Positions 21,521 through 43,677 of a stretch of 64,000 nucleotides of DNA are shown one piece after another. The stretch comes from Ancylobacter tetraedralis (GTDB taxonomy: Bacteria > Pseudomonadota > Alphaproteobacteria > Rhizobiales > Xanthobacteraceae): contig NZ_JACICD010000001.1 of the NCBI RefSeq assembly GCF_014195655.1, forward strand, positions 1,030,682 through 1,094,681, read 5' to 3'. The first letter of the stretch is position 1; every line of letters starts with the position of its first letter. Under the pieces are notes generated by a model, which made no database searches, had not been told where the DNA came from, and saw only the letters and a list, made by a program, of their open reading frames with translations. The position numbers and the translations under genes are program-made.

Positions 21521-21584
21521 GCGTCGGTCTCCCAAAGGGGCGGCTATCCCGTCCACAGGTCGGTGAAAGGCGTCGCATGGCCGG

Positions 21585-24004: not shown

Positions 24005-24440
24005 TCCGCCGCTCCGCAGATCGGTTGGCGGGCCGCTGCGCGCCGCGCCGCGTCGGTGAGCCAAGGGTGTGGGCAGGAGATGTGGCATGCGCGCTCGGCA
24101 CCGAGTTCAGCGGGAGTTCGGCACGCCGCGGGCGAGGGCGCGCGCCGCGATTATGGCGCGATGCCGGGGCTCCTCCCAACGGAATCAGCCGCTCGTGAGC
24201 CGCATGTCGCCAGGGACCGCGCGGCAGAACGGCCCGCGGAGCCGGGCATTCCTGACCCGGTCGTGGCGATGCGAGGCAAGAAGCCGGATCCTGCGGAAGC
24301 CCCCTCACGAACTCGCGCGTGAAAAAGCCGGGCTGCTGATCCGGCGCCTTGTCGGGCTCGCGTGCGGACACGCGAACAGGCGCCGGTGCGACCGCACGTC
24401 TGGCCGCTCCTGGTCTCGATTGAGGATGGAGATCAACCAA
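24005..24440. other. Intergenic region upstream of the nrd promoter
   Basis: These 436 bases lie between the divergent GlxA-type regulator and the nrdAB leader. No protein with family resemblance or RNA gene was recognised. It should contain the promoter of the regulator gene at its left end. Confidence 0.4.
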
Positions 24441-24469
24441 TTGACAAAAATACAGGCTCCGCATCTATA
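24441..24469 (+). promoter_or_regulatory. Sigma-70-type promoter of nrdAB, with a partial NrdR-box match over the -10
   Basis: A perfect -35 TTGACA (24441-24446) is followed after exactly 17 bp by TCTATA (24464-24469). Transcription would start near 24476, right at the first base of the riboswitch P1 helix. The core CTATATCTGG at 24465-24474 matches 8 of 10 positions of the NrdR box core and overlaps the -10, the usual place for NrdR repression of RNR genes. The flanks match poorly and I found no clear second box. Confidence 0.5.
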
Positions 24470-24473
24470 TCTG

Positions 24474-24668
24474 GTAGTCACGGTCTCTCGAATCCATCGG
24501 GTTCGCGAGCTAAGAGGGAATTCGGTGCGCTATCAGGCAAAACCGGAGCTGCCCCCGCAACTGTAAGCGGCGAGCCGACGTCCATTACCCGCGTCACTGA
24601 CCCCGCAAGGGTTCGGGAAGGCCGGACGGAGGCTATGACCCGCGAGCCAGGAGACCTGCCGCGACTCA
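24474..24668 (+). ncRNA. Cobalamin (B12) riboswitch upstream of nrdA
   Basis: This is a cis-acting leader RNA that binds adenosylcobalamin and lowers expression of the downstream gene. The conserved core is nearly canonical: GGGAATTCGGTG, GAGCTGCCCCCGCAACTGTA, GTCACTG, CGGGAAGGC and the B12 box AGCCAGGAGACCTGCC (24645-24660). The closing P1 helix pairs AGTCACGG (24476-24483) with CCGCGACT (24659-24666). The downstream gene is a B12-independent class I ribonucleotide reductase, so B12 would shut it off, presumably in favour of a class II enzyme elsewhere. The expression platform between 24669 and 24784 could not be read with certainty; a CCCC/GGGG hairpin sits just before the ATG. Confidence 0.95.
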
Positions 24669-24784
24669 TGAAACGTCCCTGGGCGGGGTGTCCCGGTGGT
24701 GCGCTGGCACTTCCGTGGCTCGTCCATAGGGAATCCCATCGTGTCCGCTCGGCCTTTGCCCCCAAACATCTGGGGTTTAAGCCG

Positions 24785-27661
<2,877 letters not shown>

Positions 27662-28896: not shown

Positions 28897-29120
28897 CTAC
28901 TCCCCGTCGGGATCCGAGGCGAATGCCGCCGCGTAGGCGCCTTCGACCTGCGGACGTTGCCGGTCGGCGTCGGCTCCCAGTGGATGAAGGGGAGGAGGCG
29001 CGCAAGCCAGCTTTCCAGCGTCCGCCGGTAATCCTCGATCCGGTCGAGGATCGCCGCCGAGACGGGAAAAACAACCCCCGGCGGATTGAGCCCGCGTTGC
29101 GCTCCCCCTCGATGGCGAAG
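28897..29120 (-). pseudogene. Remnant of a Fic-family gene (C-terminal part)
   Basis: A short stretch on the minus strand reads GLNPPGVVFPVSAAILDRI and continues DYRRTLESWLARLLPFIHWE, then PTPTGNV, in one frame (29120-28953). I recognise this as the region following the catalytic core of long Fic-family proteins, where family members go on with VLNDTADxYRFFD. Here the frame breaks, and the shifted frame reads QVEGAYAAAFASDPDGE before a stop. There is no start, no HPFxxGNG motif and no intact remainder. It is a decayed fragment, most likely left by past gene transfer. It lies directly left of the 14-gene operon. Confidence 0.55.
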
Positions 29121-29709: not shown

Positions 29710-30759
29710 ATGGGCATCGACAGGCGTCGGGCGCTTTACATGATGGGTGCAGGCATGGGTGCGGTGGCTCTGGGCAAGACCACGCGCAGTGCCTTTGCCG
29801 AGGAGGCACGGGAACTGGTGATCGTCACCTATCCCGGCGCGCTGTCCGAGCCGCACCGCTGGCTGGCGAACGAGATGCAGGCGCGGCATCCGGGTCTGAC
29901 CATCCGCCTGGTGCCGTCCGACAGCCAGGACATCGTCGCCCAGATCAAGGCGGCGCAGGGCTATTCGCCCTTCGATGCCGGCCCCAATGACGAGCCGCCC
30001 CATCTCATCGGTGTTCGCGAGGGCTATCTGGCCAAGCGCGAGGGCGCTATCCCGAACCTTGCCAATGCCTATCCCGATCTCGTCGCCAGGAGCGAGGGCT
30101 TCGGTGTGCCGGCGACCTATTCCCTCGTCGGCATCGCCTACAACACGGATATGGTGAAGGAGCCGCCGACGCGCTGGGCCGATCTGTGGCGGCCGGAATT
30201 CAAGGGGCGTGTCGGCATTGCGCGCACCTCGTCCAATCTCGGCCTCGCCACACTCGCCATCGCCGCGAAGACCCATGGCGGATCGGAAGGCAATCTCGAT
30301 GTCGGCTGGGAGAAGCTGCAGGCGCTGGAGCCGAAGGCGGCGCGCTCGCCGGCCTCGCTGACGCAGATGCTGGAGCGCGAGGAGATCGCGATCTGCCCGC
30401 TGTGGAACAACAACACGGCGGCCGCCGCCGCCAAGGGGCTGCCCATCGCCTTCGTCAAGCCGGCGCCGGGCGCCGTCGCCATCATCTCGTTCTTCTCGGG
30501 CTTCGCCAAGACACGGCACCCCGAACTGGTCGCCGAATGGCTGAACGGCATTCTCAGCACCGAATACCAGAGCCGGGCCGCGGCGGCGCCGTATTATTTC
30601 GGACCGACGGTCAAGGGCGTGCCGGTGCCGCCCGATGCCGCGCCCTATACGCCCGCCACGCCCGAAGAGGTACTCGCCCTGCAGACGATCGACTGGAAGA
30701 CGATCGTCCCGGTGCGCGGCGCTCTCGTCGAACGTTTCGACCGCACCTTCGCCATTTGA
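29710..30759 (+). CDS. ABC transporter solute-binding protein (Pot/family 1 type), copy 1
   Basis: This periplasmic binding protein has 349 residues and is the first gene of the 14-gene operon. It has a twin-arginine-like signal (MGIDRRRALYMMGAGMGAVA), and the mature protein probably starts near EEARELVIVTYPG. The body has the PotD/extracellular-solute-binding layout: YNTDMVKEPPTRWADLWRPE and, near the C-terminus, APYYFGPTVKG. It is the same length as the next gene and strikingly similar along its entire length (RHPGLTIRLVPSDSQDIVAQ against KHPGLTIRLVPSESQDVVAQ), so the two arose by tandem duplication. Its partner is the Pot-type ATPase and permeases at 33876-36656. Confidence 0.9.
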   Translation: MGIDRRRALYMMGAGMGAVALGKTTRSAFAEEARELVIVTYPGALSEPHRWLANEMQARHPGLTIRLVPSDSQDIVAQIKAAQGYSPFDAGPNDEPPHLIGVREGYLAKREGAIPNLANAYPDLVARSEGFGVPATYSLVGIAYNTDMVKEPPTRWADLWRPEFKGRVGIARTSSNLGLATLAIAAKTHGGSEGNLDVGWEKLQALEPKAARSPASLTQMLEREEIAICPLWNNNTAAAAAKGLPIAFVKPAPGAVAIISFFSGFAKTRHPELVAEWLNGILSTEYQSRAAAAPYYFGPTVKGVPVPPDAAPYTPATPEEVLALQTIDWKTIVPVRGALVERFDRTFAI

Positions 30760-30813
30760 CATGCGTGATGTGACCCTTCCATCCGAGCCCGTCTGCCCCA
30801 GGGAAGCCCTTTC

Positions 30814-31863
30814 ATGACCCTCTTCACCAACCGCCGCCGCTTTCTCCAATCGGGTGCCGCGCTTGGCGCCGCGCTCGCCATGCCGAGCCTCGCGCGCGCG
30901 CAGGACAAGCGCGAACTCGTCATCGTCTCCTTCGCCGGACAGCTGCAGGAGCCGCATCAGTGGCTGGCACGGCAGATGGAGGCCAAGCATCCGGGGCTCA
31001 CCATCCGGCTCGTGCCGAGCGAGAGCCAGGATGTCGTCGCGCAGATCAAGGCCTCGCAGGGCTATTCGCCCTATGACGCCATGCCCAATGGCGAGCCTCC
31101 GCATCTCATCGCCATCCGCGACAGCTATATCCTGCCGCTCGATCCGGCGGCGGTGCCGAACGCCACGAAGGCCGTGCCGGCCTTCGTGGCCAAGAGCAAG
31201 GGCTATGGCATCCCCGCGAGCTATTCGCTCATCGGCATCGCCTACAACACCGCGCTGGTCAAGACGCCGCCGACGGCGTGGAAAGACCTCTGGGACCCGC
31301 AGTACAAGGGGCAGATCGGCATTCCGCGCGCGTCCTCCAATCTCGGGCTCGGCTTCCTGGTGGCCGCGGCCAAGACCTTCGGCGGTTCGGAAACCGACCT
31401 GACGGTGGGCTGGGAGAAGCTCAAGGAGCTGAACCCGAAGGTTGGCCGCTCGCCCTCCCAGCTGCTGCAGATGCTGGAGCGCGAAGAGATCGTCATGGCG
31501 CCGATCTGGAACAATGATGCCGCTGGCGCCGCCGACAAGGGCTTGCCCATCGCCTTCGTAAAGCCGGCGCCGGGCCCGATCGCGGTGATCTCGTTCATGT
31601 CCGCCGTCAAGGGCACGCGCTACCCCGAGCTGGTCAATGAGTGGATGAACGCGATCCTCTCGCCGGAGTACCAGCAGAAGGCGGCCGGCGCGCCCTATTA
31701 TTTCGGTCCGACCATCGAAGGCGTCGAGGTGCCGGAAGCGGCGCGCGCCTACACGCCAGCGACGCCCGAAGAGGTCGCCGCGCTGCAGACCGTCGACTGG
31801 TCGGCGATCGCCGCCAAGCGCGGGGCGATCGTCGAAGAGTTCGACCGCCTGTTCGCCTCGTGA
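30814..31863 (+). CDS. ABC transporter solute-binding protein (Pot/family 1 type), copy 2
   Basis: This is the second tandem periplasmic binding protein, 349 residues, 54 bp after the first. The Tat-type signal is clear (TNRRRFLQSGAALGAALAMP) with cleavage probable at ARAQ-DKR. Core segments match copy 1: YSLIGIAYNTALVKTPPTAW, ASSNLGL, EREEIVMAPIWNNDAAGAAD, APYYFGPTIEG. Differences concentrate in short stretches that may line the binding cleft, so the pair could broaden the ligand range of one transporter. The SIS gene begins 4 bp after its stop. Confidence 0.9.
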   Translation: MTLFTNRRRFLQSGAALGAALAMPSLARAQDKRELVIVSFAGQLQEPHQWLARQMEAKHPGLTIRLVPSESQDVVAQIKASQGYSPYDAMPNGEPPHLIAIRDSYILPLDPAAVPNATKAVPAFVAKSKGYGIPASYSLIGIAYNTALVKTPPTAWKDLWDPQYKGQIGIPRASSNLGLGFLVAAAKTFGGSETDLTVGWEKLKELNPKVGRSPSQLLQMLEREEIVMAPIWNNDAAGAADKGLPIAFVKPAPGPIAVISFMSAVKGTRYPELVNEWMNAILSPEYQQKAAGAPYYFGPTIEGVEVPEAARAYTPATPEEVAALQTVDWSAIAAKRGAIVEEFDRLFAS

Positions 31864-31867
31864 GCCG

Positions 31868-32953
31868 ATGGAACCGATGATGACCGAGAGCCGACCCATG
31901 CTGGAGGATGTCGCGCGCCAGCCGGCCATCCTCGCGAGCCTGATGTCGCGCGCTGCGGACTTCCGCGCCGCCGCCGGTGTGCTGGGCGGGCGTGAGGGGC
32001 GCGTCCTGGTGACGAGCTGCGGCGACGGTCATTTCGCGGCGATGGCGGCGTGCTCCAGTGCGAGCCGCCTCGGGCTGGACTGGCGCGCCGTCGGGCCGCT
32101 CGACCTGCTGGTCGGCGCGGACGAACGGCGGGACGGCGACCGGGTGATCGCCGTCTCGATGTCCGGGAATGTCGACCGTACCGTCGAGGCGGCGCGGATG
32201 GCGCAAGCGCGCGGCCTGCCGATCCTCGCCCTGGTGAACGGGGAGGGCGGCCGGCTCGGCGCACTGGCGCGGCGGAAGATCTCGCTCGACCTGCCCGACA
32301 TCGCTCCCTTCCTGTGCGGGACCGCGAGCTACACCGCGACGCTCGCCGCGCTGCTGCTGTTCGCCCAAGGGCTGGCGGGGCGCCCGGAGCCGGATCTGTC
32401 GCCGCTCGCCGCCGTCCAGCGCGGCGCCCGCGCGGCGGCGCTGCCGGTCACTGCGGAGATCGCCCGGCAGGGGTTTTCCGGCGTGCGCCTCCTCGCGGCG
32501 GGTGCCGAGCAGGGGACGGCGGCCTATGGCGCGGCGAAATTCGTCGAGCTGACCCGGCTATCGGTCTGGAGCGGCGAACTGGAGGAGTTCGCCCATAGCC
32601 AGTACTGGTCGATGCCGCGCACCGATCTGGTCGTGATCCTCGCCACGCACCCTGTTGTCGCCGGCTATGCCCGGGAATCGACCCGGGCGCTTGCGGAACT
32701 CGGCGTTTCGACCCTCGCGATCGACACGGCCGACGCGCCGGTCGAGACCGCGACCTGGCGCGTCACCCTGCCGCCGGTCGATACGGCGCTGGCGCCGCTT
32801 GCGAGCGCGATTCCCCTGCAGCTTCTCGCCTATCGAATGGCCGAGGCCGCCGGGCTCGATCCCGACACCCGCCTCCACCTCAAGAACGATGCGGAACGCT
32901 TCCGCGTCAGCCGTATGCTGACGCGCCGCTCGCTCCTCGGGACGGGCTTGTAA
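31868..32953 (+). CDS. SIS-domain protein, candidate sugar-phosphate isomerase/deglycase, copy 1
   Basis: This cytoplasmic protein of 361 residues has two SIS (sugar isomerase) folds. The first carries the Ser-rich phosphosugar loop VIAVSMSGNVDRTVEAARMA (about 93-112). The second contains the family's acid/base signature Glu-x-x-His as E240-F-A-H243 (LEEFAHSQYW). In FrlB-type deglycases and GlmS this Glu and His drive deglycation or isomerisation. It sits immediately before a PfkB kinase with a 5-bp gap, the pairing seen for fructosamine catabolism (FrlB with FrlD). It is only remotely similar to the second SIS protein at 36719. The substrate is inferred. Confidence 0.82.
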   Translation: MEPMMTESRPMLEDVARQPAILASLMSRAADFRAAAGVLGGREGRVLVTSCGDGHFAAMAACSSASRLGLDWRAVGPLDLLVGADERRDGDRVIAVSMSGNVDRTVEAARMAQARGLPILALVNGEGGRLGALARRKISLDLPDIAPFLCGTASYTATLAALLLFAQGLAGRPEPDLSPLAAVQRGARAAALPVTAEIARQGFSGVRLLAAGAEQGTAAYGAAKFVELTRLSVWSGELEEFAHSQYWSMPRTDLVVILATHPVVAGYARESTRALAELGVSTLAIDTADAPVETATWRVTLPPVDTALAPLASAIPLQLLAYRMAEAAGLDPDTRLHLKNDAERFRVSRMLTRRSLLGTGL

Positions 32954-32958
32954 CCCTC

Positions 32959-33879
32959 ATGAGTTCGCAGCGCCTCCTCGTCATGGGTTATCTCTCCATT
33001 GATACGGTCACACAGGCCGATGGCGCCTCGCGCATCGTGCCCGGCGGTGCCGGCCTCTATGCCGCGCTCGGCGCGGCGCGGGCGGGCGCGCAGGTCGATC
33101 TTTGCGCCTCGATCGGAACGGATTTTCCCGCCGCTTGGATTGCCGCGCTCGAGGCCGCAGGTGTGGGCACCTCCCAGCTGGCGAGGCAGGAATATCCGTC
33201 CCGCCGGGCACATATTGACCATGCCGCCGACGGCCGGCGCGGCTCGCGCCATTATGACGATCCGGCCTGGTGGGAGGCGAGCCGCCGGCATGCCCCCGCG
33301 CCGCCGGACGACCTCTCCGCCTATCGCGTCGCGGTGGCCTGCCCGATGCCGGCCAAAAGTCTCGGCGACTTCCTGGCTCGCGCCGATAGGTCCGGCGTGG
33401 CGGTGGTCGCCGACACCAACGAGATCTTCGCCTCGACCGAAGGGGAGGCGATACTGGAAATGCTGCCGTTTCTCGACGTTTTCGCGCCGAGCCGGGAGGA
33501 AACCCGCCTTCTCGCGCCGGGAATGTCGGACGACGCGGCCGCGCGCGATCTGGCCGCCCGGGGCAGGGCCGGCACCGAAGGGCCGGTGGTGATACAGAAG
33601 CGGGGGGCCGAGGGACTGTTCATCATCGACGGTCGGGGCATTGGGGAATGGTACCTGCCGGCCCTCACGGCGGACGTTGTCGACCCGACGGGGGCGGGCG
33701 ACGCGACGGTCGGTGCGTTCGCGGCGGCGCGGATGCAGGGGGCGCCCCCGCTCGAAGCGGGCCGCACGGCCCAGCGCATCGGCACCCTCGTGGTCTCCGG
33801 ACATGGGCCTTCGGCTCTTTGCGCGGCACTTCCGCCGCTGTCTTCTTCTTGCGCAGGCCAGGGGGTCCTCGTCCGATGA
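32959..33879 (+). CDS. PfkB-family carbohydrate kinase, copy 1
   Basis: This ribokinase-fold kinase of 306 residues phosphorylates a sugar or sugar-like hydroxyl with ATP. The N-terminal glycine motif is IVPGGAGLYAALGAARAG. The C-terminal family signature is DVVDPTGAGDATVGAFAA, whose Asp in GAGD is the catalytic base. Like other members it has a short lid segment after residue 90. It ends in a 4-bp ATGA overlap with the ABC ATPase. Together with the preceding SIS gene it forms a kinase plus SIS pair, repeated later in the same operon, suggesting two related sugar substrates or two steps. Confidence 0.88.
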   Translation: MSSQRLLVMGYLSIDTVTQADGASRIVPGGAGLYAALGAARAGAQVDLCASIGTDFPAAWIAALEAAGVGTSQLARQEYPSRRAHIDHAADGRRGSRHYDDPAWWEASRRHAPAPPDDLSAYRVAVACPMPAKSLGDFLARADRSGVAVVADTNEIFASTEGEAILEMLPFLDVFAPSREETRLLAPGMSDDAAARDLAARGRAGTEGPVVIQKRGAEGLFIIDGRGIGEWYLPALTADVVDPTGAGDATVGAFAAARMQGAPPLEAGRTAQRIGTLVVSGHGPSALCAALPPLSSSCAGQGVLVR

Positions 33880-34922
33880 ATCAGCTCATCATCGACGGCG
33901 TTACCAAGCAGTTCGGTGCGCTCAAGGTTCTCCAGTCCTGCGATCTCACGGTCGAGAGGGGCTCCGTGGTCACGCTGCTCGGCCCGTCCGGCTGCGGGAA
34001 GACCACTCTGCTGCGCTCGATCGCCGGCTTCGTCACGCCGGATGCCGGCCGGATTCGGGTGAAGGGGCAGGATATTTCGCGACTGCCGCCGAACCGCCGG
34101 GATGTTGGCTATGTCTTCCAGAACTACGCGCTGTTTCCGCATTTGACCTGCCGCGACAACATCGCCTACGGGCTGGTCGTGCGGCGCGTGCCCAAGGCGG
34201 AGATCGCCCGCCGCGTGTCGCAGGCGCTCGACCTCATTGCACTCGCCGCTTTTGCGGACCGGTATCCCAAGCAGCTCTCGGGCGGCCAGCAGCAGCGCGT
34301 CGCCATTGCCCGCGCGCTGGTGCTCGAACCGCAGGTGCTGCTGCTCGACGAGCCGTTCAACGCCCTCGACGCGCAGCTGCGGCTTTCCATGCAGGTCGAG
34401 CTGCGCAAGCTCATCGACCGCGTCGGCATTACCTCGATCTTCGTCACGCATGACCAGCAGGAAGCGATGGCGCTGTCCGACCGCGTCGCCATCATGCGCG
34501 GCGGGCGCATCGAGCAGATCGGCAGCCCCCTCGAAATCTATGATCGCCCGCGCAGCTGCTTCGTTGCCGACTTCATCGGCCGCGCCAACCTGATGCCCAC
34601 GCAGGTGCGCGCCGGGCGCACCGAGGGGCCGCAGGCCATTGCCGCCGCGCTCCCTGACGGTCCCGCGACGCTGGTCGCGCGGCCGGAGAACATCGATCTC
34701 ACACCCGGCAGCGGTCCGGGCTGGCCCGGCAAAGTGACGTTCCTCACCGCGCTCGGACCGGTCATCGAATATGAGGTCGATTGTGGCTTCTCTGTCCCGG
34801 TGCGCGCGGCTCTGCCGCGCCATGCCGGGGTGGAGACCTTCGAGCCGGGTGCGCTGGTGACGGCCCGCATCCGCGACGAAGCGGCGGCGGTCGTTCTGCC
34901 GGGGGAGCCGAACCATGCTTAG
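33876..34922 (+). CDS. ABC transporter ATPase, PotA (spermidine/putrescine) type
   Basis: This cytoplasmic ATPase of 348 residues drives the binding-protein-dependent importer. It has Walker A GPSGCGKTT, Q-loop YVFQNYALFPHL, signature LSGGQQQR, Walker B VLLLDEPFNALDAQLR and switch FVTHDQQEA. It is followed by a C-terminal TOBE-type regulatory domain (VARPENIDL). The ATG overlaps the kinase stop, and the gene overlaps the next permease by 8 bp. PotA-type ATPases serve polyamines, Fe(III), opines and other small cationic or sugar-amine compounds, so the class does not fix the substrate. Confidence 0.93.
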   Translation: MNQLIIDGVTKQFGALKVLQSCDLTVERGSVVTLLGPSGCGKTTLLRSIAGFVTPDAGRIRVKGQDISRLPPNRRDVGYVFQNYALFPHLTCRDNIAYGLVVRRVPKAEIARRVSQALDLIALAAFADRYPKQLSGGQQQRVAIARALVLEPQVLLLDEPFNALDAQLRLSMQVELRKLIDRVGITSIFVTHDQQEAMALSDRVAIMRGGRIEQIGSPLEIYDRPRSCFVADFIGRANLMPTQVRAGRTEGPQAIAAALPDGPATLVARPENIDLTPGSGPGWPGKVTFLTALGPVIEYEVDCGFSVPVRAALPRHAGVETFEPGALVTARIRDEAAAVVLPGEPNHA

Positions 34923-35841
34923 CCGACATTCGCCTGAGGCGAGCGCTCCCCTGTCGCCGCGTGGCTTGTCCGTCGCGCGCTTCCTCGATGGCGGCGGCAT
35001 CTGGCCGGCTGTGCCGGCTCTGGTCTATCTCCTGGTATTCATGGTGGCGCCGATCGCGACGCTGCTGACCTTCGGCTTCGTGGACATCGACCGCGGCACC
35101 GTCGGTGAGGGCGGATTCACCCTTTCCCACATGGTCGGGGTGCTGAGCGATCCACTTGTCTGGCGCCTGACCTGGCGCTCCTTCTGGATTGCTGTCGTCT
35201 CGACCTCGCTCACCCTGATCTTCGCTTATCCCGTTGCTTATGCGTATGGGCATCTGCGCGGCGCCGCGCGCACGCTGCTGCTCGTGGCGGTCATGTCACC
35301 CCTGCTGACCAGCGCGCTGGTGCGCACCTATGCCTGGATCGTCATTCTTGGTGGGCGGCGCGGGCTGGTGAACCAGACACTCCTGACGCTGGGCCTCATC
35401 GAGCGGCCGCTCGACATCCTCAATACCTCGACCGCGGTGCTGATCGGCATGACCCAGATCCACCTGCCCTTCATGATCCTGCCACTGCTCGCGGTGCTGT
35501 CGGAACGCGACCGCTCCTTCGAGCAGGCCTCGCTCAATCTCGGGGCGAGCCAGACCGTGACGTTCTTCCGGGTGACCGTGCCGATGTCGATGCCCGCGAT
35601 CGTCGCCGGTTTCGCGCTGGTCTTCGCGGTCTCCTACACCAACTTCATCGTGCCGCAGCTGCTCGGCGGCGGGAATTATTCCACCATCGCCGTGCAGGTC
35701 TACGAGCAGACCATCGTGGTGCTGGACTGGTCACGCGGCGCGGCGCTGGCGACCCTGCTTCTGTCGAGTTGCTTCGTCTTCGTCTTCGCTATCGTCGCTG
35801 CCGGCAACTGGCTGACGCGCTGGAGCGAGGTGCGGCGATGA
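34915..35841 (+). CDS. ABC transporter permease, PotB type
   Basis: This inner-membrane permease of 308 residues has about six transmembrane helices. After a polar N-terminus the first helix is WPAVPALVYLLVFMVAPIAT. The ATPase contact loop is EQASLNLGASQTVTFFRVTV, the EAA motif. It overlaps the ATPase gene by 8 bp and the next permease by 4 bp (ATGA), so the three transporter subunits are made together. The layout PotA-PotB-PotC in the middle of a catabolic operon with the binding proteins at its head is common for opine and polyamine importers of Hyphomicrobiales. Confidence 0.92.
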   Translation: MLSRHSPEASAPLSPRGLSVARFLDGGGIWPAVPALVYLLVFMVAPIATLLTFGFVDIDRGTVGEGGFTLSHMVGVLSDPLVWRLTWRSFWIAVVSTSLTLIFAYPVAYAYGHLRGAARTLLLVAVMSPLLTSALVRTYAWIVILGGRRGLVNQTLLTLGLIERPLDILNTSTAVLIGMTQIHLPFMILPLLAVLSERDRSFEQASLNLGASQTVTFFRVTVPMSMPAIVAGFALVFAVSYTNFIVPQLLGGGNYSTIAVQVYEQTIVVLDWSRGAALATLLLSSCFVFVFAIVAAGNWLTRWSEVRR

Positions 35842-36656
35842 GTGGTCCCCGTCAGATGATCTCGCTCGGCGATCGGCTCGCACGCGGGATGCTGATCGCC
35901 CTCACGGTCATGTCGATCGTGCTGCTGGTCGCGCCCAGCCTGATCGTCATCGCCATTTCCTTCGAGCCGCGCGGCTACATCGCCTTTCCGCCGTCCGGTT
36001 TTTCGCTGCGCTGGTACTGGGCGCTGCTCGAGCGGCAGCAGCTGCTGGATTCCATCCTTGTCTCGCTGCGCATCTCTGTGATGGTGATGGTTGTCTGCCT
36101 GGTTCTCGGCATTCCCGCGGCCTTTGCGGGTACACGCGGCCGCTTCCCCGCCAAGACCGCGTTCAACGCGTTCTTGCTCGCGCCGCAGATGATGCCGGGC
36201 ATGGTGATTGGCATCGCCTCGCTGTTCTTCGGCGCCTACATCTCCTTCCGCGCGTCGGATCTGATGCTGGTGCTGTCGCTGTCGGTGTTCTGCCTTCCCT
36301 TCGTCGTTCGTATTGTCATGGCGCGGCTCGCCGGGCTCGACCCGCTGCTCGACGAGGCGAGCGCCAATCTGGGCGCCGGCAAGTTTGAAACGTTCTTCCG
36401 GGTGACGCTGCCGCAGCTGGCGCCCGCCGCCTTTGCCGGCGCGGCGTTCACCTTCATCGAAGCCTTCGACAACGTCACCGTGTCGCTCTTCACCTCGGAT
36501 GTACGGGCGCGCCCGCTGCCGGTGGAACTCTACTACCTCGTGCAGTTCGAATCCTCCCCGCTCATCGCCGCGATTTCCTCGCTCGAGATCGGCCTGTCGC
36601 TCGTGGTGATGCTGGTAATCGCCCGAGCGGTCGGACTCGAACGCTTCGGTCGCTGA
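35838..36656 (+). CDS. ABC transporter permease, PotC type
   Basis: This is the second membrane subunit of the importer, 272 residues with about six helices. The first is MLIALTVMSIVLLVAPSLIV, followed by the typical PotC loop FEPRGYIAFPPSGFSLRWYW. The EAA contact loop is DEASANLGAGKFETFFRVTL. The start at MSGPRQMISLG forms a 4-bp ATGA overlap with the preceding permease, which decides it over an upstream in-frame codon. The SIS gene follows after 62 bp. Confidence 0.92.
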   Translation: MSGPRQMISLGDRLARGMLIALTVMSIVLLVAPSLIVIAISFEPRGYIAFPPSGFSLRWYWALLERQQLLDSILVSLRISVMVMVVCLVLGIPAAFAGTRGRFPAKTAFNAFLLAPQMMPGMVIGIASLFFGAYISFRASDLMLVLSLSVFCLPFVVRIVMARLAGLDPLLDEASANLGAGKFETFFRVTLPQLAPAAFAGAAFTFIEAFDNVTVSLFTSDVRARPLPVELYYLVQFESSPLIAAISSLEIGLSLVVMLVIARAVGLERFGR

Positions 36657-36718
36657 AAGCCGTGCGCGCGCAACACTCGCGGGCGCCACTTCCCCTCGCA
36701 GAACCGGACCCACTACCC

Positions 36719-37837
36719 ATGACCGATTTCGCCAGCCGTCTCAAAGCCCTGACGGCGGAACCCTCCCGCGACACGGCCGACGATCCGGCACGGCTCGCCC
36801 GCGTCGAGCGCACCCGTAGCGAGTTGTTCGGGCAGGGGGCTGCCATCCGGCAAACGCTTGAAGGCGCGCAGGCCAATCTGGCGGCCATCGCCCAGATGCT
36901 ATCCGCCCGCCGGCTCAGCCGGATCGTCGTCGTTGGCTGCGGAGATTCCTGGTTTGCCGGCAAGGGAGTGCGCCATGCGCTCGAAGCGATGACGAGCCTG
37001 CCGGCGGAGGCTATCGAGGCGCTGGACTACGCCGCTTATGAAGCGGGGATTGCCGATGTCGCCACTCTGGTTATCGGCATCTCCTCGGGCGGTAACACGT
37101 CAGCGGTTATGCAGGCGCTCAGGGCTGCGTCGGAACGTGGCGCCTGCTGCATCGGCGTCTCCAATACGGCGGGCAGTCCGATTCTCACCGAGTTCGACGC
37201 GGCTTTGCAGGTCCATGCGACCCGCAAGGGCTGGCCGACACAATCCACCAACGCCACCATGGCTCTATTGATTGCGCTGGGGGCGACATTGCCGTCGGCC
37301 TCGGTGGCGCGGGACGCGATGCTGCGCGAGCTCGCCGATCTGCCGGAAATCATTGACCGGCTCTGCCTTGAGCTTGACGCCGAGCTCAAGGCATTGGCGG
37401 AGCGCTGGGCCCCCGCGGAGCTCGTGCTCTATTCCGGCCTCGGTCCGAACTTCGCGGCGGCCAGCATCGGTGCGGCGAAGCTCCGGGAACTGTCCCCGGT
37501 GCATGCCTTCGCCCTGCCTTTGGAGGAATATCACCATTACCGCACGCAAAAGGCCGGCGACCCGCTCGTCCTTGTCGCCACAGATCCGGCCAGCGCCGAG
37601 CGGGCCCTCGATACCGCGCTGGTCGCCGAGGAGGTGGGCGGGCCGCTCCTCGCCATTCTGGCGGCTCGCGCACCGGAAATCGAAAAGCGCGCCGCAGCCG
37701 TGATCCGCGTGCCCGAAACGCTGCCCGCACTGGCGGGGATGGTGTCGATCGTGCCGCTACACCTGCTCGCCTACCATTTTGCCAGGGCGCGGGCGGCTCT
37801 CGGTCTCGGCGCCGCCGTTCGGCCGCCGCTGCATTGA
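36719..37837 (+). CDS. SIS-domain protein, candidate sugar-phosphate isomerase/deglycase, copy 2
   Basis: This two-SIS-fold protein of 372 residues is related to the GlmS isomerase half, AgaS and FrlB-type deglycases. The phosphosugar loops are RIVVVGCGDSWFAGKGVRH (about 68-86) and VIGISSGGNTSAVMQAL (about 118-134). The Glu-x-x-His signature appears as E270-Y-H-H273 (PLEEYHHYR). The ATG at 36719 is preferred to a GTG at 36662 because the family begins near the helix after MTDFASRLKAL. It is followed after 7 bp by the second PfkB kinase, so the kinase plus SIS pair is present twice in this operon. Confidence 0.82.
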   Translation: MTDFASRLKALTAEPSRDTADDPARLARVERTRSELFGQGAAIRQTLEGAQANLAAIAQMLSARRLSRIVVVGCGDSWFAGKGVRHALEAMTSLPAEAIEALDYAAYEAGIADVATLVIGISSGGNTSAVMQALRAASERGACCIGVSNTAGSPILTEFDAALQVHATRKGWPTQSTNATMALLIALGATLPSASVARDAMLRELADLPEIIDRLCLELDAELKALAERWAPAELVLYSGLGPNFAAASIGAAKLRELSPVHAFALPLEEYHHYRTQKAGDPLVLVATDPASAERALDTALVAEEVGGPLLAILAARAPEIEKRAAAVIRVPETLPALAGMVSIVPLHLLAYHFARARAALGLGAAVRPPLH

Positions 37838-37844
37838 GGACGTT

Positions 37845-38906
37845 ATGATACGGCTCTTTACCGCGGGCGGCATCCTCCTCGACACGGTCGTGGCGGCGGA
37901 CGGGACCCTGGGCCCGCGCAGCATGGGAGGCAACGCCGTCTATTCGGCCGCCGGCGCGCGCCTCTGGCTCGACGGTGTCGGCATTGTCGGTCGCCTGCCG
38001 GAAAATTACCCTCGCGAACTGGTCGCGCAGCTGGCGGTAGCCGGTATCGACACGCAGGGGCTGCATTTCGAGGCGGAGAGCGTCGCCGAGGGCGAGTGGT
38101 TCTTCTACCGTCCCGATGGCAGCCGCGCCGACCATCTGCATGCGCCGCTTGATGAGCCGCCGCCGCATCCGCCCGGCACCCGGCTGGATGCTCGCACGCG
38201 CGGCCTTCTGGAGGAGCGCCTGCGCTTGCGTCCGGCGGCGGGGCGCGACTTCGCCAGCTTTCGGCGGAGCCACCCGGTCCGCCTTGAGGATGTCCCGGCC
38301 GCGTACCGGCAGGCACGCGCGGCCCATCTCGCGGCGAACCGACCGGACCAGCAGGTCGAGATGGCGCGGGGCCTGTCCCGCGAAGGGATCGGCCTGTCGG
38401 TTGATCCCGGCTCAAATGCCGGCATCTACCCCGCGGCCGATCTGGCGGAGCTGTTCCGCGCCGTCCGCGCCTTCCTGCCCAGCGAGAGGGAACTGGAGGC
38501 TCTCGTCCCCGGCTTCGGTCTCGCCGCGGGTCTGCTCCACGTGCAGCGTCTGGGGGCGCCGATCGTGGTGGTCAAGCTCGGTGCGCGCGGGTGCGGCCGG
38601 CTCGGGCCGGATGGGGCACTCGAAACGATGCCCGCCTTCCCGGTGGCCGCCGTCGATCCGACGGGGGCGGGAGACGCCTTCTGCGGCGGCTTCCTCGCCG
38701 GCCTCGTGCTGTTCGAGGATGTGCGCGCCGCGATCTGCCTCGGCACTGTTTCCGCCTCCTTCGCGGTGGAGGCGTTCGGGCCGTTCCACCTTCTCGACAC
38801 GTCCCGGCACACCGCCCGCGCGCGCCTCACCTCCTATCTCGCCACGCTCGACCCCGCTTTGGCCGAGCCGCTTCGACCAATCTTTTCAGACCTGGATGCC
38901 GCATGA
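37845..38906 (+). CDS. PfkB-family carbohydrate kinase, copy 2
   Basis: This ribokinase-fold kinase has 353 residues, about 50 more than copy 1. N-terminal substrate motif SMGGNAVYSAAGARLWLDG and C-terminal AAVDPTGAGDAFCGGFLAGL with the catalytic Asp are intact. The extra length is a Pro/Arg-rich central insertion (about residues 100-190), which could form an extended lid or contact a bulky aglycone. A GAGGA site precedes the ATG. Its stop overlaps the BtpA-like gene (ATGA). The paired SIS gene lies immediately upstream. Confidence 0.87.
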   Translation: MIRLFTAGGILLDTVVAADGTLGPRSMGGNAVYSAAGARLWLDGVGIVGRLPENYPRELVAQLAVAGIDTQGLHFEAESVAEGEWFFYRPDGSRADHLHAPLDEPPPHPPGTRLDARTRGLLEERLRLRPAAGRDFASFRRSHPVRLEDVPAAYRQARAAHLAANRPDQQVEMARGLSREGIGLSVDPGSNAGIYPAADLAELFRAVRAFLPSERELEALVPGFGLAAGLLHVQRLGAPIVVVKLGARGCGRLGPDGALETMPAFPVAAVDPTGAGDAFCGGFLAGLVLFEDVRAAICLGTVSASFAVEAFGPFHLLDTSRHTARARLTSYLATLDPALAEPLRPIFSDLDAA

Positions 38907-39691
38907 GTTTTCTTCGTTCCAGCATAGGCGACCCGTTGATCGTCGCCGCCCTGCACCTGCCGGACCTGTCGATCGATCGCGACCTCTCCCTCGCCTTCCT
39001 CGAGGACTATGTCCTCGCCAATGGGGAGGTCTTCGTCGGGGCGGGCATTCGGCGGATCATGCTGCAGGATCAGACGCGCCAGAAGGGGCCGGCCAGCGCC
39101 GAGACGATCGCCATCACCGCCGCGCTCGGGCGCGCGCTGAAGCAGGCGTATCCCGAGATATCGCTCGGCATCATCGTGCAGGCCCACGACGCGGTGGCTC
39201 CGCTTGCGATCGCCCACGCGACGGGTGCGGAGTTCGTGCGGCTCAAGGTCTTCGTTGGTGCCGCCATGACAATGGAGGGCGCGCGCGAAGCGCTTGCCAC
39301 CGAGGCCCGTACTTATCGCCACCAGCTGCGCCGCGACGACATCGCCATTCTCGCCGACGTCTTCGACCGTACCAGCGTGCCTTTGATCAACGTGACGCCG
39401 GAAGAGGCCGCCAAGGGAGCGGTCAAGCTTGGTGCCGACGCGCTGGTCATTACCGGCGCGACCTTCACGGAGAGCCTCGAGCGCATAGGCGCCGCCAAAC
39501 GTGCGGGCGTTCACCATCCAATCCTGATCGGTGGCAGCGTCACTGCGGAAAACATCGCTGATACGCTTGCCGTCGCCGATGGCGCGATCGTCTCCACCGC
39601 GCTCATGCGCAAGGACACCGGGCGCCACGAAAGGGTGCTCTGGGATTCCGGCAAGACGCAACAATTCATGGAGGCGGCATGTCTACGCTAG
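38903..39691 (+). CDS. BtpA/SgcQ-family TIM-barrel protein
   Basis: This protein of 262 residues has the BtpA-family layout: VIAALHLPDLS at the first strand, then LEDYVLANGEVFVGAGIRRI, IVQAHDAVAPLAIAHATGAE, and a phosphate-type C-terminal loop HPILIGGSVTAENIADTL with ADGAIVSTALM. The family fold is a TIM barrel with a phosphosugar-style binding loop. Its biochemical function is poorly defined: E. coli SgcQ is a putative nucleosidase, and BtpA was named for photosystem I biogenesis. In this operon, next to sugar kinases and SIS proteins, a role on a phosphorylated sugar conjugate is more likely. It overlaps its neighbours on both sides. Confidence 0.82.
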   Translation: MSFLRSSIGDPLIVAALHLPDLSIDRDLSLAFLEDYVLANGEVFVGAGIRRIMLQDQTRQKGPASAETIAITAALGRALKQAYPEISLGIIVQAHDAVAPLAIAHATGAEFVRLKVFVGAAMTMEGAREALATEARTYRHQLRRDDIAILADVFDRTSVPLINVTPEEAAKGAVKLGADALVITGATFTESLERIGAAKRAGVHHPILIGGSVTAENIADTLAVADGAIVSTALMRKDTGRHERVLWDSGKTQQFMEAACLR

Positions 39692-40623
39692 GCCCCGAAC
39701 GTGACTTCGCCGGCTATCGCGGTCGCGAGCCGGCCATTCGCTGGCCAAACGGCGCCCGGCTTGCCGTCTCTGTGGTGGTCAATGTCGAGGAGGGCGCGGA
39801 ACTCTCCATCGGCGCTGGCGATGAGCGCAACGAGTCGATCTACGAGGCGGTCGAGGCGACAGAGGGCGCGCGCGATCTCTGTATGGAAAGCCATTTCGAG
39901 TACGGCACCCGCGCCGGCTGGCCGCGCATCCGTAAGGCGCTCGCCGACCGAGCCATCCCCGCAACTCTGAATGCCAACGGACGCGCCCTGGCGCTCTCGC
40001 CCTGGATCGCCACTGAGGCGGTTGCGGACGGCCATGAGGTCGCCGCGCACGGCTGGCGCTGGGAGCGTCATGTTCACATGGACGAGGCGGAGGAGCGCGG
40101 GGCCATCGCCCGCTCGGTGGATGCCATTGCCGCGGCCGCGGGCACGCCACCGGTCGGCTGGCACACGCGCTCGGCCACCTCGGTGCGCACGCGTGACCTG
40201 CTCGTCGCGCATGGCGGCTTCCTTTACGATTCCAACGCCTACAATGATGACGTGCCCTATGTGGTGACAATCGCGGGGCACGATCACGTCGTGCTGCCCT
40301 ACGCCTTCGACACCAATGACATGCGCTACTTCAACCGCGGCGGCTTCACCTTCGCGGAGGATTTCGCGCGCTATTGTAGCGCCGCGTTCGACCGCCTCTA
40401 TGAGGAGGGCGCCACCCGGCCCCGCATGCTGTCCATCGGCCTGCATCTGCGCATCATCGGCCGGCCGGCCCGTATCGCCGGGCTGGAGATGTTCCTTGAC
40501 CACGCGCTGGGCCATCCCGGCGTCTGGTTCGCGCGCCGGGACACCATCGCCCATCACTGGCGCGCCGGTCTCGGCCTGCCCGTCTGGCAGGCGCGCTCGA
40601 CACCGAAGGGTTTTGCCGCGTGA
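39679..40623 (+). CDS. Polysaccharide-deacetylase-fold protein, PuuE-like, copy 2
   Basis: This NodB-fold protein of 314 residues is of the PuuE/allantoinase-like type. Its landmarks are VVVNVEEGAELS, AAHGWRWERHVHM, WHTRSATSVRTRDLL and LHLRIIGRPARIAGL. It starts 13 bp inside the end of the BtpA-like gene and ends overlapping copy 3 (GTGA), so translation is coupled. It is related to copy 1 at 20588 but closer in sequence landmarks to copy 3. Two adjacent paralogues may form a hetero-oligomer or act on two related cyclic amides. Confidence 0.83.
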   Translation: MSTLGPERDFAGYRGREPAIRWPNGARLAVSVVVNVEEGAELSIGAGDERNESIYEAVEATEGARDLCMESHFEYGTRAGWPRIRKALADRAIPATLNANGRALALSPWIATEAVADGHEVAAHGWRWERHVHMDEAEERGAIARSVDAIAAAAGTPPVGWHTRSATSVRTRDLLVAHGGFLYDSNAYNDDVPYVVTIAGHDHVVLPYAFDTNDMRYFNRGGFTFAEDFARYCSAAFDRLYEEGATRPRMLSIGLHLRIIGRPARIAGLEMFLDHALGHPGVWFARRDTIAHHWRAGLGLPVWQARSTPKGFAA

Positions 40624-41522
40624 CGCGCGATCTCCTTGGCTATGGTGGCCAGTGGCCGGATGTTACCTGGCCCAACGGAACGAAGCTCGCCGTCTCGATC
40701 GTCATCAATTTCGAGGAGGGGGCGGAGGAGCAGGTCGGCGATGGCGACCCGCGCTCCGAACGCCTCGGTGAAGTGCTCTCGGTGGTCGAGCCGGGTCGGC
40801 GCGACTTCGGCCAGGAGCAGATCTTCGCCTATGGCATGCGCGCCGGGGTCTGGCGCGTCGCCGAATGCCTGGAGCGTGCGGCATTGCTGGCGACCATCTT
40901 CTTCTGCGGCCGCGCGGTCGAGCGGGCTCCGGAACTCGCGCGCCGGCTCGTCGATGCCGGCCATGAGGCGGCCTGTCATGGCTGGCGCTGGCGCCCGCAT
41001 GCCGACTATCCGAGCCCTGAGGCCGAAAGGATCGATCTAGATCGGGCGACAGCCGCCATAGAGGCCGCGACCGGCGTGCGCCCGCTCGGCTTCTTTTGTC
41101 GCGGCTCGGAAAGCCCCTGGACGCGCCAGATCCTTGCCGAGCGTGGGTATGTCTACACCTCGAACGGCCTCGACGACGACCTCCCGTATTGCGATGCCCA
41201 TACGGCGCTGCTGGTCGTTCCCTATGCGTTCGACAGCAACGACATGAAGTTCTTCCACCCCAACGGCTTCGTGCGGGCGGACGAGATGGTCGACTATGTT
41301 GTCGACGCGCTCGACGTACTGGAAGCGGAGGCTCAGCGCGGCCATGCGCGCTTACTGAATATCGGCTTCCATCTGCGCATTGTTGGCCGGCCGGCACGGT
41401 TCAAGGCCTTCCAGGCCATCATCCGGGAGCTGAAGCGGCGCGAGAGCCGCCTCTGGGTGGCCCGCCGCATCGACATCGCACGCGCCTTCCAAGCCGCGAC
41501 GGACCGGGGTGACATACCGTGA
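40620..41522 (+). CDS. Polysaccharide-deacetylase-fold protein, PuuE-like, copy 3
   Basis: This protein of 300 residues is the tandem paralogue of the preceding gene, with a GTG start in a 4-bp GTGA overlap. Landmarks are VINFEEGAEEQVGDGD, ACHGWRWRPHADY, FCRGSESPWTRQIL and FHLRIVGRPARFKAF. Compared with copy 2, the segment after the strand GFF has CRGSES where copy 2 has TRSATS, a likely substrate-pocket difference. It is followed by a second GTGA overlap with the racemase-like gene. Confidence 0.83.
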   Translation: MTRDLLGYGGQWPDVTWPNGTKLAVSIVINFEEGAEEQVGDGDPRSERLGEVLSVVEPGRRDFGQEQIFAYGMRAGVWRVAECLERAALLATIFFCGRAVERAPELARRLVDAGHEAACHGWRWRPHADYPSPEAERIDLDRATAAIEAATGVRPLGFFCRGSESPWTRQILAERGYVYTSNGLDDDLPYCDAHTALLVVPYAFDSNDMKFFHPNGFVRADEMVDYVVDALDVLEAEAQRGHARLLNIGFHLRIVGRPARFKAFQAIIRELKRRESRLWVARRIDIARAFQAATDRGDIP

Positions 41523-42175
41523 AGCCCATTCTCCTCATCAATCCCAATACCAATGCCGGCATCACCGCCGCAATGCTGGACATTGCCCGCGAGAGCCTGC
41601 CGGACGCCCGCGTCGAAGGGCTGACGGCGCGGTTTGGCGCGCCGCTCATCACCGACGAGACCGCGCTTGCCGAAGCCGGGCGCGCCGTTCTCGATCTTGC
41701 CCAGCACATCGGCAAGGCGGCAGGCGTCATCGTTGCTGCCTTTGGCGATCCCGGGCTCGCGGCCCTGCGGGCGCGGATAGCCCTGCCAATTACCGGGCTG
41801 GCGGAAGCCGGAATGGCCGAAGCCGGGGAGGGTGGGCGCCGCTTCGCGGTAGTCACCACCACGCCCGACCTTGTCGCCGCGATCGCGCGTTCCGCACAGG
41901 CGTATGGCCATGGTCCGGCCTTCCTCGGCACCTTTCTAACACCGGGTGACCCGCGCGACGTGATGGCGGTGCCCGACCGGCTCGTCGAAGCACTGGCCGA
42001 GGCCTGTAGCCGCGCGGTCAAGGTGGGTGCCGAGGCGGTCGTCATCGGCGGTGGCCCGCTGGCTGTCGCCGCGCGCGCACTTGCGGGTAAACGCGATGTG
42101 CGGCTGGTCGAGCCGCTGCCGTCCGCCCTGCGTCTCGCCCATAGACGTGCCATGATGGCGGAGAGCCTCGCATGA
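41519..42175 (+). CDS. Asp/Glu/hydantoin racemase-superfamily protein lacking both catalytic Cys
   Basis: This protein of 218 residues is clearly in the hydantoin/Asp-Glu racemase superfamily: ILLINPNTNAGITAAMLDIA, GAPLITDE, AFGDPGLAALR and AEAVVIGGGPLA. The two Cys that do the proton transfer in active racemases are replaced: Ala74 in AAFGDPG (usually ACFGDPG) and Gly177-Gly178 in IGGGPLA. Only one Cys remains, in EACSRA, at a non-active-site position. It is therefore probably not a two-base Cys racemase; it could be a binding protein, a decarboxylase-like relative or a distinct lyase. The start is GTG, coupled to the preceding gene; its stop overlaps the amidohydrolase start. Confidence 0.8.
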   Translation: MKPILLINPNTNAGITAAMLDIARESLPDARVEGLTARFGAPLITDETALAEAGRAVLDLAQHIGKAAGVIVAAFGDPGLAALRARIALPITGLAEAGMAEAGEGGRRFAVVTTTPDLVAAIARSAQAYGHGPAFLGTFLTPGDPRDVMAVPDRLVEALAEACSRAVKVGAEAVVIGGGPLAVAARALAGKRDVRLVEPLPSALRLAHRRAMMAESLA

Positions 42176-43677
42176 CTACCACTCTCCTGCGTGCCGACCA
42201 CGTGCTTCTGGGCTTTGCCGCCGATGGAAGCCCCGACTGGCTCCGCGATGCGGGCCTGCTCATCGAGGACGGGCAGGTCCGTGAAATTGGCGACGGACCT
42301 GCTCTTGCGCGTGCCCATGCCGATGCTGCGGCTCTCGGGGGGCGGGGCTTCGTCGCGATCCCGGGCCTGATCAACGCCCATCATCATGTTGGCTTAACGC
42401 CGTTCCAGCTTGGCTCACCGGACCATCCGCTGGAACTGTGGTTCGCCAGCAGGCTGGGCTTGCGCGATGTCGATATGCGGCTCGACACGCTCTATTCCGC
42501 CTTTGAGATGATCGCCTCGGGTGTCACCACGGTCCAGCACCTGCATTCGCGCGTGCCGGGCGGGCTCGATGCGGTGCTGGCGACGGCCGAGCGGGTTATC
42601 GGTGCCTATGGCGAGATCGGTATGCGCGCCTCCTACTCGTTCGCGCTGCGCGATCAGAACCGGCTGGTCTACGAGGCGGACGAGGCCTTCCTCGCCCGGA
42701 TTCCGCCGGAGCTGCGGCCCGGGCTCGCCGCCTATTTCGCACGTTTTGCGCAGCCCCTCTCCGACCAGATCGAAGTGTTCCGCGAATTGCGGCGCCGCTA
42801 CGCCGACAACGGGCGCATCGCCATCCAGATCGCGCCCTCCAATCTGCATTGGCTCTCCGACGCCGCGCTGGCGAGCGCTGCCGAGATCGCCGCCGAGACG
42901 GGCGCGCCGATGCATATGCACCTGCTCGAGACGCCCTACCAGAAGGCTTACGCCCTGAAGCGCACCGGCGGCTCCGCGCTCGCCCACATCCATCGTTTCG
43001 GGCTGACCGGTCCGCATCTCACCCTCGGCCACGGCGTATGGATGAGCGAGGAGGATATGGAGATCTGCGCCCATACCGGCACGCGCATCTGCCACAACTG
43101 CTCATCCAATCTGCGGCTGAAGAGCGGCACCGCGCCGGTCAACCGCTTCAGAGCGCACGGCATTCCCGTTGCTCTGGGCATTGACGAGGCGGGGATCAAC
43201 GACGACCGCGACATGCTGCAAGAGATGCGCCTCGCCCTGCGCTTGCATCGTCAGCCCGGCATCGACAGTTCCCAACCGAGCGCGGCGGACGTCCTGCGCA
43301 TGGCCACAGAGCATGGCGCGGGAACGACGCCTTTCGGCAACTATATCGGCCAGCTGCGCCCAGGCAGCGCGGCCGATATCGTGCTGCTCGACTGGGACCG
43401 CCTTGTCTATCCCTATCAAGACCCCGACCTCGCCCTGCAGGACGTGCTCGTCTACCGCGCGCAGCGCGAGTGCGTGGACACGGTGGTGGTTGGAGGCGAG
43501 GTCATCTACACCAAAGGCACTTTCACCCGGATCGACCGGGCGGAGACTCTGGCAGAGATCCACCGGCGCCTGAAGGTGACGCCCACCTCGGAGGAACTCG
43601 ACCGGCGGCGTCTCGCAGCACAGTTATTGCCCCATGTGCGTGCGTTCTATGATGGCTATATCGACGGTCTATTGTGA
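42172..43677 (+). CDS. Amidohydrolase, cytosine-deaminase/ATZ-TRZ (SsnA-like) family
   Basis: This is the last gene of the operon, a metal-dependent TIM-barrel hydrolase of 501 residues. Metal ligands are visible: INAHHHVGLTP (His-x-His), MHMHLLETPYQKAYA (His and Glu), LTLGHGVWMS (His) and ALGIDEAGINDD (Asp). An N-terminal and C-terminal beta-sandwich flank the barrel (GGEVIYTKGTFTRID at the end). Members deaminate or dechlorinate N-heterocycles such as cytosine, guanine or triazines. This supports a nitrogen heterocycle or cyclic amidine in the pathway. ATGA overlap with the racemase-like gene fixes the start. The gene is intact although it ends only 60 bp from the integrase fragment. Confidence 0.87.
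   Translation: MTTTLLRADHVLLGFAADGSPDWLRDAGLLIEDGQVREIGDGPALARAHADAAALGGRGFVAIPGLINAHHHVGLTPFQLGSPDHPLELWFASRLGLRDVDMRLDTLYSAFEMIASGVTTVQHLHSRVPGGLDAVLATAERVIGAYGEIGMRASYSFALRDQNRLVYEADEAFLARIPPELRPGLAAYFARFAQPLSDQIEVFRELRRRYADNGRIAIQIAPSNLHWLSDAALASAAEIAAETGAPMHMHLLETPYQKAYALKRTGGSALAHIHRFGLTGPHLTLGHGVWMSEEDMEICAHTGTRICHNCSSNLRLKSGTAPVNRFRAHGIPVALGIDEAGINDDRDMLQEMRLALRLHRQPGIDSSQPSAADVLRMATEHGAGTTPFGNYIGQLRPGSAADIVLLDWDRLVYPYQDPDLALQDVLVYRAQRECVDTVVVGGEVIYTKGTFTRIDRAETLAEIHRRLKVTPTSEELDRRRLAAQLLPHVRAFYDGYIDGLL

Follow-up and report, generated by a model that had tools for sequence, protein, structure and literature searches.

The window analysed here is a 64,000-nucleotide stretch of Ancylobacter tetraedralis DNA (NZ_JACICD010000001.1, positions 1,030,682 to 1,094,681), and the subject of this work is an operon whose 14 genes, all on the + strand, span window positions 29710-43677 according to the gene calls. 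The gene order is SBP1, SBP2, SIS1, PfkB1, PotA, PotB, PotC, SIS2, PfkB2, BtpA, PuuE1, PuuE2, Race, and AHS. Adjacent genes overlap by 4-13 bp or are spaced by 4-7 bp, and the sole larger gap, of 54 bp, lies between SBP1 and SBP2; these figures assume that PotC starts at 35838 and PfkB2 at 37845, both internal to longer listed open reading frames (ORFs; 35769-36656 and 37779-38906) that would give overlaps of 73 and 59 bp. A preliminary description of the window had proposed a tightly spaced same-strand operon of 14 genes with tandem binding proteins, a Pot-type importer, two SIS proteins, and two PfkB kinases, and the gene calls and Pfam agree with it on each of these points.

SBP1 (29710..30759; Pfam SBP_bac_6/8) and SBP2 (30814..31863; SBP_bac_8/6, with a weak Tat signal) are solute-binding proteins that share 62% identity. 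They are accompanied by a PotA-type ABC ATPase with a TOBE_2 domain (33867..34922), placed by Pfam and by NCBIfam matches under the equivalog cut-offs, and by two BPD_transp_1 permeases recognized by Pfam and NCBIfam, one of PotB type (34915..35841) and one of PotC type (35838..36656). No protein of the operon reached the cut-off of a listed NCBIfam model, the matches of PotA, PotB, PotC, and AHS being the best 25 models each. Identity is uneven among the other paralogues, at 42% for PuuE1/PuuE2 and 28% each for SIS1/SIS2 and PfkB1/PfkB2. The doubling of the kinase/SIS pair noted earlier is real, but at 28% identity a recent doubling of the pair is ruled out. At gathering scores, Rfam gave no RNA element in the operon; its hits across the whole window were a cobalamin riboswitch and two tRNAs. 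The promoter scan stayed at shuffle level (2 against a mean of 1.5), and the terminator scan gave 12 against 8.2 in shuffles (standard deviation 3.2).

For comparison, named genomes were scanned with a nine-sequence BtpA profile, which gave 68 loci, and 13 further loci brought the set to 81 BtpA loci (78 distinct), in which genes were called with a codon-bias gene caller. All 14 genes occur in the same order and on the same strand in 7 of the 81, namely in the same-genus relative G203 (locus L045), Aurantimonas Leaf443 (L062), Aureimonas (L063 and L065), Skermanella (L064 and L066), and Paracoccus (L067). Because the same order recurs in this way, the 14-gene operon is confirmed as real and not a product of chance, and the prediction that the gene set travels together held when co-occurrence was checked. 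BtpA is 75% identical to its Aurantimonas and Aureimonas counterparts. Within the family, where 26 of 296 genomes matched the BtpA bait, G203 (92%) carries the only orthologue beyond the window genome, the remaining matches being just 28-34% identical. At E 1e-20, BtpA was found in 2 of 385 genomes of the class sample and 17 of 397 of the order sample, with the window genome counted in each. Six other genomes of the genus have the right flank of the window with the operon absent at that site; four of them (L211, L212, L214, and L216) match the window from 43769 onward, the match of L213 and L215 starts at a point further right, and the operon of G203 occupies the same site as in the window genome. 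This looks like a horizontally spread unit. An island bounded by direct repeats of the tRNA-Asn end was considered and rejected, as no repeat of at least 20 nt was reported. At the DNA level, BtpA relatives were carried by 4 and PuuE2 relatives by 2 of 72,556 plasmid records, none of these relatives being a close copy.

The recurring kinase, SIS, and BtpA genes

At least three genes are available on either side of BtpA in 59 of the 68 named loci, and within three genes of BtpA these 59 loci have a SIS gene in 56 cases, a PfkB gene in 53, and both in 53. The figures are 39 of 40 for SIS and again for PfkB where BtpA is at least 47% identical, and 17 of 19 and 14 of 19, respectively, where BtpA is more distant. 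As the loci were picked by BtpA, its own constancy is built into the sample, unlike the constancy of SIS and PfkB. The trio is also found in Chloroflexota, Bacillota, and Spirochaetota, and it occurs in several settings, including a DeoR-type regulator and divergent Pot importer with SIS2-PfkB2-BtpA-PuuE1-PuuE2-Race-AHS (L083, L084, L089, L090, and L095-L097), an SBP_bac_5/Opp importer with SIS1-PfkB1-AHS and a divergent BtpA (L087, L091, L100, and L101), and GntR/UTRA-PfkB-SIS-BtpA with a PnrA importer (L053-L057 and an annotated Mesorhizobium huakuii plasmid). Most of the loci L110-L129 have the trio and neither PuuE nor Race. Between BtpA and the nearby SIS protein, pairwise distances correlate at 0.87, and between BtpA and the kinase at 0.75 (0.82 and 0.87 in the closer set). 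In a kinase tree, the kinases near BtpA, with which PfkB2 (37845..38906) groups, stand largely apart from ribokinase-like kinases of the same loci, with 3 label changes against 35.6 in shuffles; long branches were flagged in this tree, and three BtpA-near kinases of Chloroflexota fall on the other side. PfkB1 (32959..33879) is, by Pfam and the tree, a sugar or nucleoside kinase. On Haloferax and Halobellus plasmids (L192 10001-10708 and L194 10001-10471), BtpA adjoins a PfkB-type carbohydrate kinase with no annotated SIS gene nearby, a two-gene form of the trio.

Nucleoside genes are frequent beside the more distant trios. At least one marker (nucleoside hydrolase, PsuG, PnrA/BMP importer, or phosphorylase) is present in 11 of the 19 distant loci. 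In Anaerolineae the neighbours of the trio are nucleoside hydrolases, an ADP-ribosylglycohydrolase fragment, ribokinase-like kinases, and a PF00697 protein; PsuG stands beside the trio in 4 of the 68 named loci, L126 has a phosphorylase and importer parts, and L110 and L127 have a PnrA/BMP protein. Nucleoside genes are also found in L053-L057 and next to the trio in Mesorhizobium huakuii, where an annotated dihydropyrimidinase lies beside it. Among the PDB structures related to the binding protein of L053 are PnrA/TmpC (2fqw) and BmpD (6shu), both nucleoside binders, as well as the atrazine-binding protein 6pi5. The trio of L053 has an AtzD/TrzD-type ring-opening hydrolase, an FAD-dependent protein, and an amidase as neighbours. 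In pseudouridine breakdown, the PfkB kinase PsuK phosphorylates the nucleoside and a second enzyme, PsuG, parts the base from ribose 5-phosphate. The kinase-then-split logic would be alike here, but the window operon has no PsuG and has BtpA and SIS instead.

SIS1 (31868..32953) and SIS2 (36662..37837, starting at 36662 or 36719) are double SIS proteins, the former GlmS/deglycase-like and the latter GlmS-isomerase-like. Both have Lys-x-x-Glu and a His sixteen residues past the Glu, conserved as K224, E227, and H243 in 29/29 aligned rows for SIS1 and as K273, E276, and H292 in 71/71 for SIS2, row counts that include the window and three duplicated loci. We take this set to correspond to K485/E488/H504 of GlmS and E214/H230 of FraB, whose catalytic Glu and His are sixteen residues apart. 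The set is retained in every row of both proteins, but GlmS-type isomerases have it too, so it does not distinguish an isomerase from a deglycase. The FrlD/FrlB and FraD/FraB pathways for fructoselysine and fructose-asparagine have in common with the operon an importer, a PfkB-family kinase, and a SIS protein with Glu and His sixteen apart. The operon differs in its constant BtpA, its PuuE-like and AHS enzymes, its Pot-type importer, and SIS and kinase proteins far under the FrlB and FrlD equivalog cut-offs of NCBIfam: SIS2 reached 30.7 of 430 bits for FrlB, which was unlisted for SIS1, and PfkB1 and PfkB2 reached 19.7 and 35.2 of 247 bits for FrlD. The operon would work like the Frl/Fra kinase-deglycase pathways but lies outside them by curated cut-offs.

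An alternative is that the operon takes up a preformed Amadori or opine-type conjugate, a 1-amino-1-deoxyketose of a cyclic amide or amino acid. Kinase and SIS would then act as FrlD/FrlB or FraD/FraB do, and BtpA would come in at a later point, perhaps converting the sugar phosphate as an aldolase or epimerase. The SIS residues fit a deglycase directly, FrlB (for SIS2) and FrlD (for both kinases) are among the weak NCBIfam matches, nucleoside genes mark just one of the 40 close loci, and opine importers belong to the same binding-protein class. We nevertheless consider this rather unlikely, as the FrlB and FrlD scores, far below cut-off, are lower than the GlmS or ribokinase matches of the same proteins, and it leaves unexplained both the constancy of BtpA with the pair and the nucleoside genes of the distant loci.

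BtpA (38903..39691) scored 101.6 bits against PF03437 (gathering 30) and 100 of 153.4 bits against the BtpA/SgcQ subfamily model TIGR00259; the family name comes from photosystem I biogenesis. An AlphaFold model from 52 sequences (mean pLDDT 93.6, pTM 0.91) is a barrel, and its best 50 Foldseek matches in the PDB, with TM 0.53-0.63 on the query, include phosphate-binding barrels; among them are tryptophan synthase alpha (TrpA), thiamin phosphate synthase, PRAI, KDPG-type aldolases, ribulose-phosphate epimerase, and a fused hexulose-phosphate synthase/hexuloisomerase. One strong match, 9lj9, is a sugar-phosphate enzyme in which a barrel is fused to SIS. The last 52 columns of the BtpA profile, on the phosphate segment, matched the genome's own TrpF (probability 89, E 2.3e-6). 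Residues invariant in the 52 rows include R113 and K115 on strand 4, D152 and D155 on strand 5, and G210-G211 on strand 7. As modelled, BtpA, which had been assigned no role in the preliminary description, is a phosphosugar-type TIM barrel with a TrpF-like phosphate segment. It shares the barrel fold and the C-terminal phosphate segment with TrpF and HisA, in which the general base is a strand-1 Cys (TrpF) or Asp (HisA) and the general acid lies on strand 5, but it differs from them in having no TrpF-type cysteine on strand 1; that strand has no invariant Cys or Asp, and D152 on strand 5 is invariant.

Such a barrel might itself cleave a 5-phosphorylated N-glycoside as a TIM-barrel phosphonucleosidase, with SIS acting as the aldose-ketose isomerase of an unusual sugar phosphate thus released, e.g., of arabinose or hexose type. 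GlmS-type SIS enzymes do isomerize sugar phosphates, BtpA is phosphosugar-type by its model, the barrel-plus-SIS match 9lj9 is a sugar-phosphate enzyme, and in haloarchaea BtpA and the kinase are retained with no SIS gene close by, as would be expected if BtpA breaks the bond on its own. However, ribose would need no dedicated isomerase, and we know of no barrel glycosidase of this kind, and we regard this explanation as rather unlikely.

The BtpA profile also matched PF00697 (PRAI-like) proteins of Anaerolineae over 194 columns (probability 85.5). As a separate observation, these proteins (L111 1973-2653 and eight relatives) are encoded beside nucleoside genes and have Tyr where the genome's own TrpF has Cys; a role as TrpF proper was rejected on this ground, and they are probably not TrpF.

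The PuuE-like proteins, Race, and AHS

The last four genes encode two PuuE-like ring hydrolases of the Polysacc_deac_1 family (PuuE1, 39679..40623; PuuE2, 40620..41522), a homologue of Asp/Glu/hydantoin racemases (Race, Asp_Glu_race, PF01177; 41519..42175), and a TRZ/ATZ-type amidohydrolase (AHS, Amidohydro_1; 42172..43677). PuuE-like and racemase-like proteins also stand side by side in allantoin degradation, but the operon departs from that pathway in three respects. PuuE1 and PuuE2 reached 304 and 267 bits against the TIGR03212 allantoinase cut-off of 424.6, the genome has a separate true allantoinase on contig C5 that scored 542 bits, and Race has Ala74 and Gly178 at the positions of the racemase cysteines, taken from the 3qvj alignment, in 28/28 rows of at least 45% identity (among all 36 rows, Cys occurs at the two sites in 4 and 2). 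For the PuuE-like proteins and the racemase homologue of the preliminary description, allantoinase and racemase functions were not upheld, plain allantoin degradation is ruled out, and a hydantoin or allantoin racemase role for the PF01177 gene was rejected. Its assignment of AHS as an ATZ/TRZ amidohydrolase has stood, as the HxH, HxxE, H, and D metal and proton-shuttle residues of TRZ/ATZ (cog0402) aminohydrolases are kept in 32-33 of 33 rows, including the HxxE and the deaminase metal ligands. A third PuuE-like gene lies elsewhere in the window at 20588-21556 (-), adjoining an MFS transporter gene; its product scored 264 bits against TIGR03212, under the cut-off, and is 38% and 36% identical to PuuE1 and PuuE2, respectively.

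This aglycone part and the trio can be observed apart. L175 carries the aglycone part alone, with its own SBP, PotABC, PuuE1, PuuE2, Race, an amidase, a second Race, and two amidohydrolases, and no gene of its 20-kb stretch matched the kinase, SIS, or BtpA. The same holds for L176 and L185, except that they lack AHS. Both importers are present in the Bosea loci L078, L081, and L082. Since the trio and the PuuE/AHS part are separable, a sugar conjugate of a nitrogen ring fits as the substrate. The earlier proposal of a sugar conjugate that is split before its aglycone is opened therefore stands in part: the modules are separable as expected, but the nucleoside genes beside distant trios point to N-glycosides and away from Amadori amino acids.

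Separability could also mean that the operon of some genomes simply brings together two pathways that have nothing to do with each other, one acting on a phosphorylatable sugar or nucleoside, the other on a cyclic ureide. Each module is indeed found alone, and among the 397 order genomes 15 have a PuuE2 relative at E 1e-100, with BtpA at 47% identity missing from 11 of the 15. Two facts make this very improbable to us: the modules are joined in various ways, as one operon (L062-L067), as DeoR-linked divergent operons, and as the split Bosea loci, and 7 of the 8 order genomes with AHS of at least 57% identity (window genome included) also carry BtpA of at least 47%. The AHS match of one of the eight, G830, holds a stop codon. 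AHS relatives of 43-53% occur in many order genomes without BtpA of at least 47%. Separately, in L180, L182, L183, L184, and L186-L189, AHS relatives of 51-53% mostly stand beside an ABC importer of another type, with the rest of the operon absent, and their neighbours could serve as a pointer to the substrate class of AHS.

Proposed pathway and substrate class

Taken together, our preferred reading, to which we give a little less than even confidence, is that the operon is a horizontally spread, two-module catabolic unit whose substrate is a nucleoside-like N-glycoside with a cyclic ureide or imide as its ring. As cyclic-ureide and nucleoside genes neighbour the trio elsewhere, our best guess for the substrate is a glycosylated pyrimidine- or hydantoin-type ring. 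We infer the substrate class, each reaction, and the reaction order from gene neighbours, protein families, conserved residues, and linkage. The Pot-type importer with its two binding proteins would take up the intact glycoside, and a PfkB kinase would phosphorylate the sugar. BtpA would hold the phosphosugar end and most likely rearrange the N-glycoside into its Amadori ketose, the kind of reaction that TrpF and HisA carry out; taken alone, this step, proposed by analogy, is doubtful. The SIS protein would then free the aglycone and a sugar phosphate, and the second, quite different kinase-SIS pair may serve a second sugar or an attachment isomer. AHS could take off an exocyclic amino group of the aglycone, ring opening, in one or two steps, would fall to the two PuuE-like hydrolases, and Race, which lacks the cysteines, may be a helper or act in a later step.

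Several points weigh against this N-glycoside reading. No counterpart of the TrpF cysteine is seen in BtpA, of which strand-5 D152 alone is suggestive. SIS is absent within three genes of BtpA in 6 of the 68 named loci (L070, L086, L092, L093, L124, and L128), among which L070, L092, and L093 end at a contig edge, and on the haloarchaeal plasmids BtpA and kinase have no SIS gene within ~10 kb. The distances of PotA correlate with those of BtpA at 0.86, as well as do those of SIS and kinase, and the correlations therefore show joint inheritance and do not single out the trio as a specific partnership. A nucleoside marker gene occurs in only one of the 40 close loci, L087. The link of the window operon to nucleosides is thus drawn through its distant relatives, and "nucleoside-like" is to be taken as a lead. 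Importers of the Pot type are known mainly for carrying polyamines and small cations like them.

More broadly, kinase, BtpA, and SIS might form a general route to cleave the N-glycosidic bonds of nucleoside-like compounds without a phosphorylase or nucleoside hydrolase, in which sugar phosphorylation would be followed by rearrangement to an Amadori ketose in the TrpF-like barrel and by deglycation by SIS, a generalization that we hold to be quite doubtful. If true, it would provide a biochemical role for the BtpA/SgcQ family in Pseudomonadota, Chloroflexota, Bacillota, and Spirochaetota, and the Amadori route, if true, would be a new chemistry of N-glycoside cleavage. The recurring trio gives these widespread proteins a concrete biochemical hypothesis, and the split into two modules narrows the substrate to a glycosylated ring. 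In agreement with the preliminary description, which knew of no described pathway with this gene set, neither a description of the set nor a characterised pathway with its gene order was found in the open-licence literature, to which the search was confined. Among the weak matches of PfkB2 is a model (55.1 of 330 bits) from the haloarchaeal non-carboxylating pentose bisphosphate pathway, which uses a phosphorylase and R15P isomerase (PMC9700705); the term BtpA is absent from that article.

Flanks and other genes of the window

Ribonucleotide reductase genes lie upstream of the operon, and a tRNA-Asn gene lies downstream on the opposite strand. The cobalamin riboswitch (RF00174, 125.9 bits; 24464-24677, +) is located just ahead of, and within the longest reading of, the ORF of the reductase large subunit (24362-27661), with the small subunit next; this suggests that the reductase is under B12 control. 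A 148-bp patch at 28951-29098 is ~90% identical to the sequence left of the operon site in L211, L212, L214, L216, and G203 (L217), and it looks like a leftover of the old left flank, the reductase genes having apparently replaced that flank in the window genome. Further upstream, the gene at 15335-17812 (+) encodes a DAO/GCV_T fusion of dimethylglycine or sarcosine dehydrogenase type, and it is clustered with genes for an M20 peptidase, a 2-hydroxyacid dehydrogenase, and an SBP_bac_5 binding protein.

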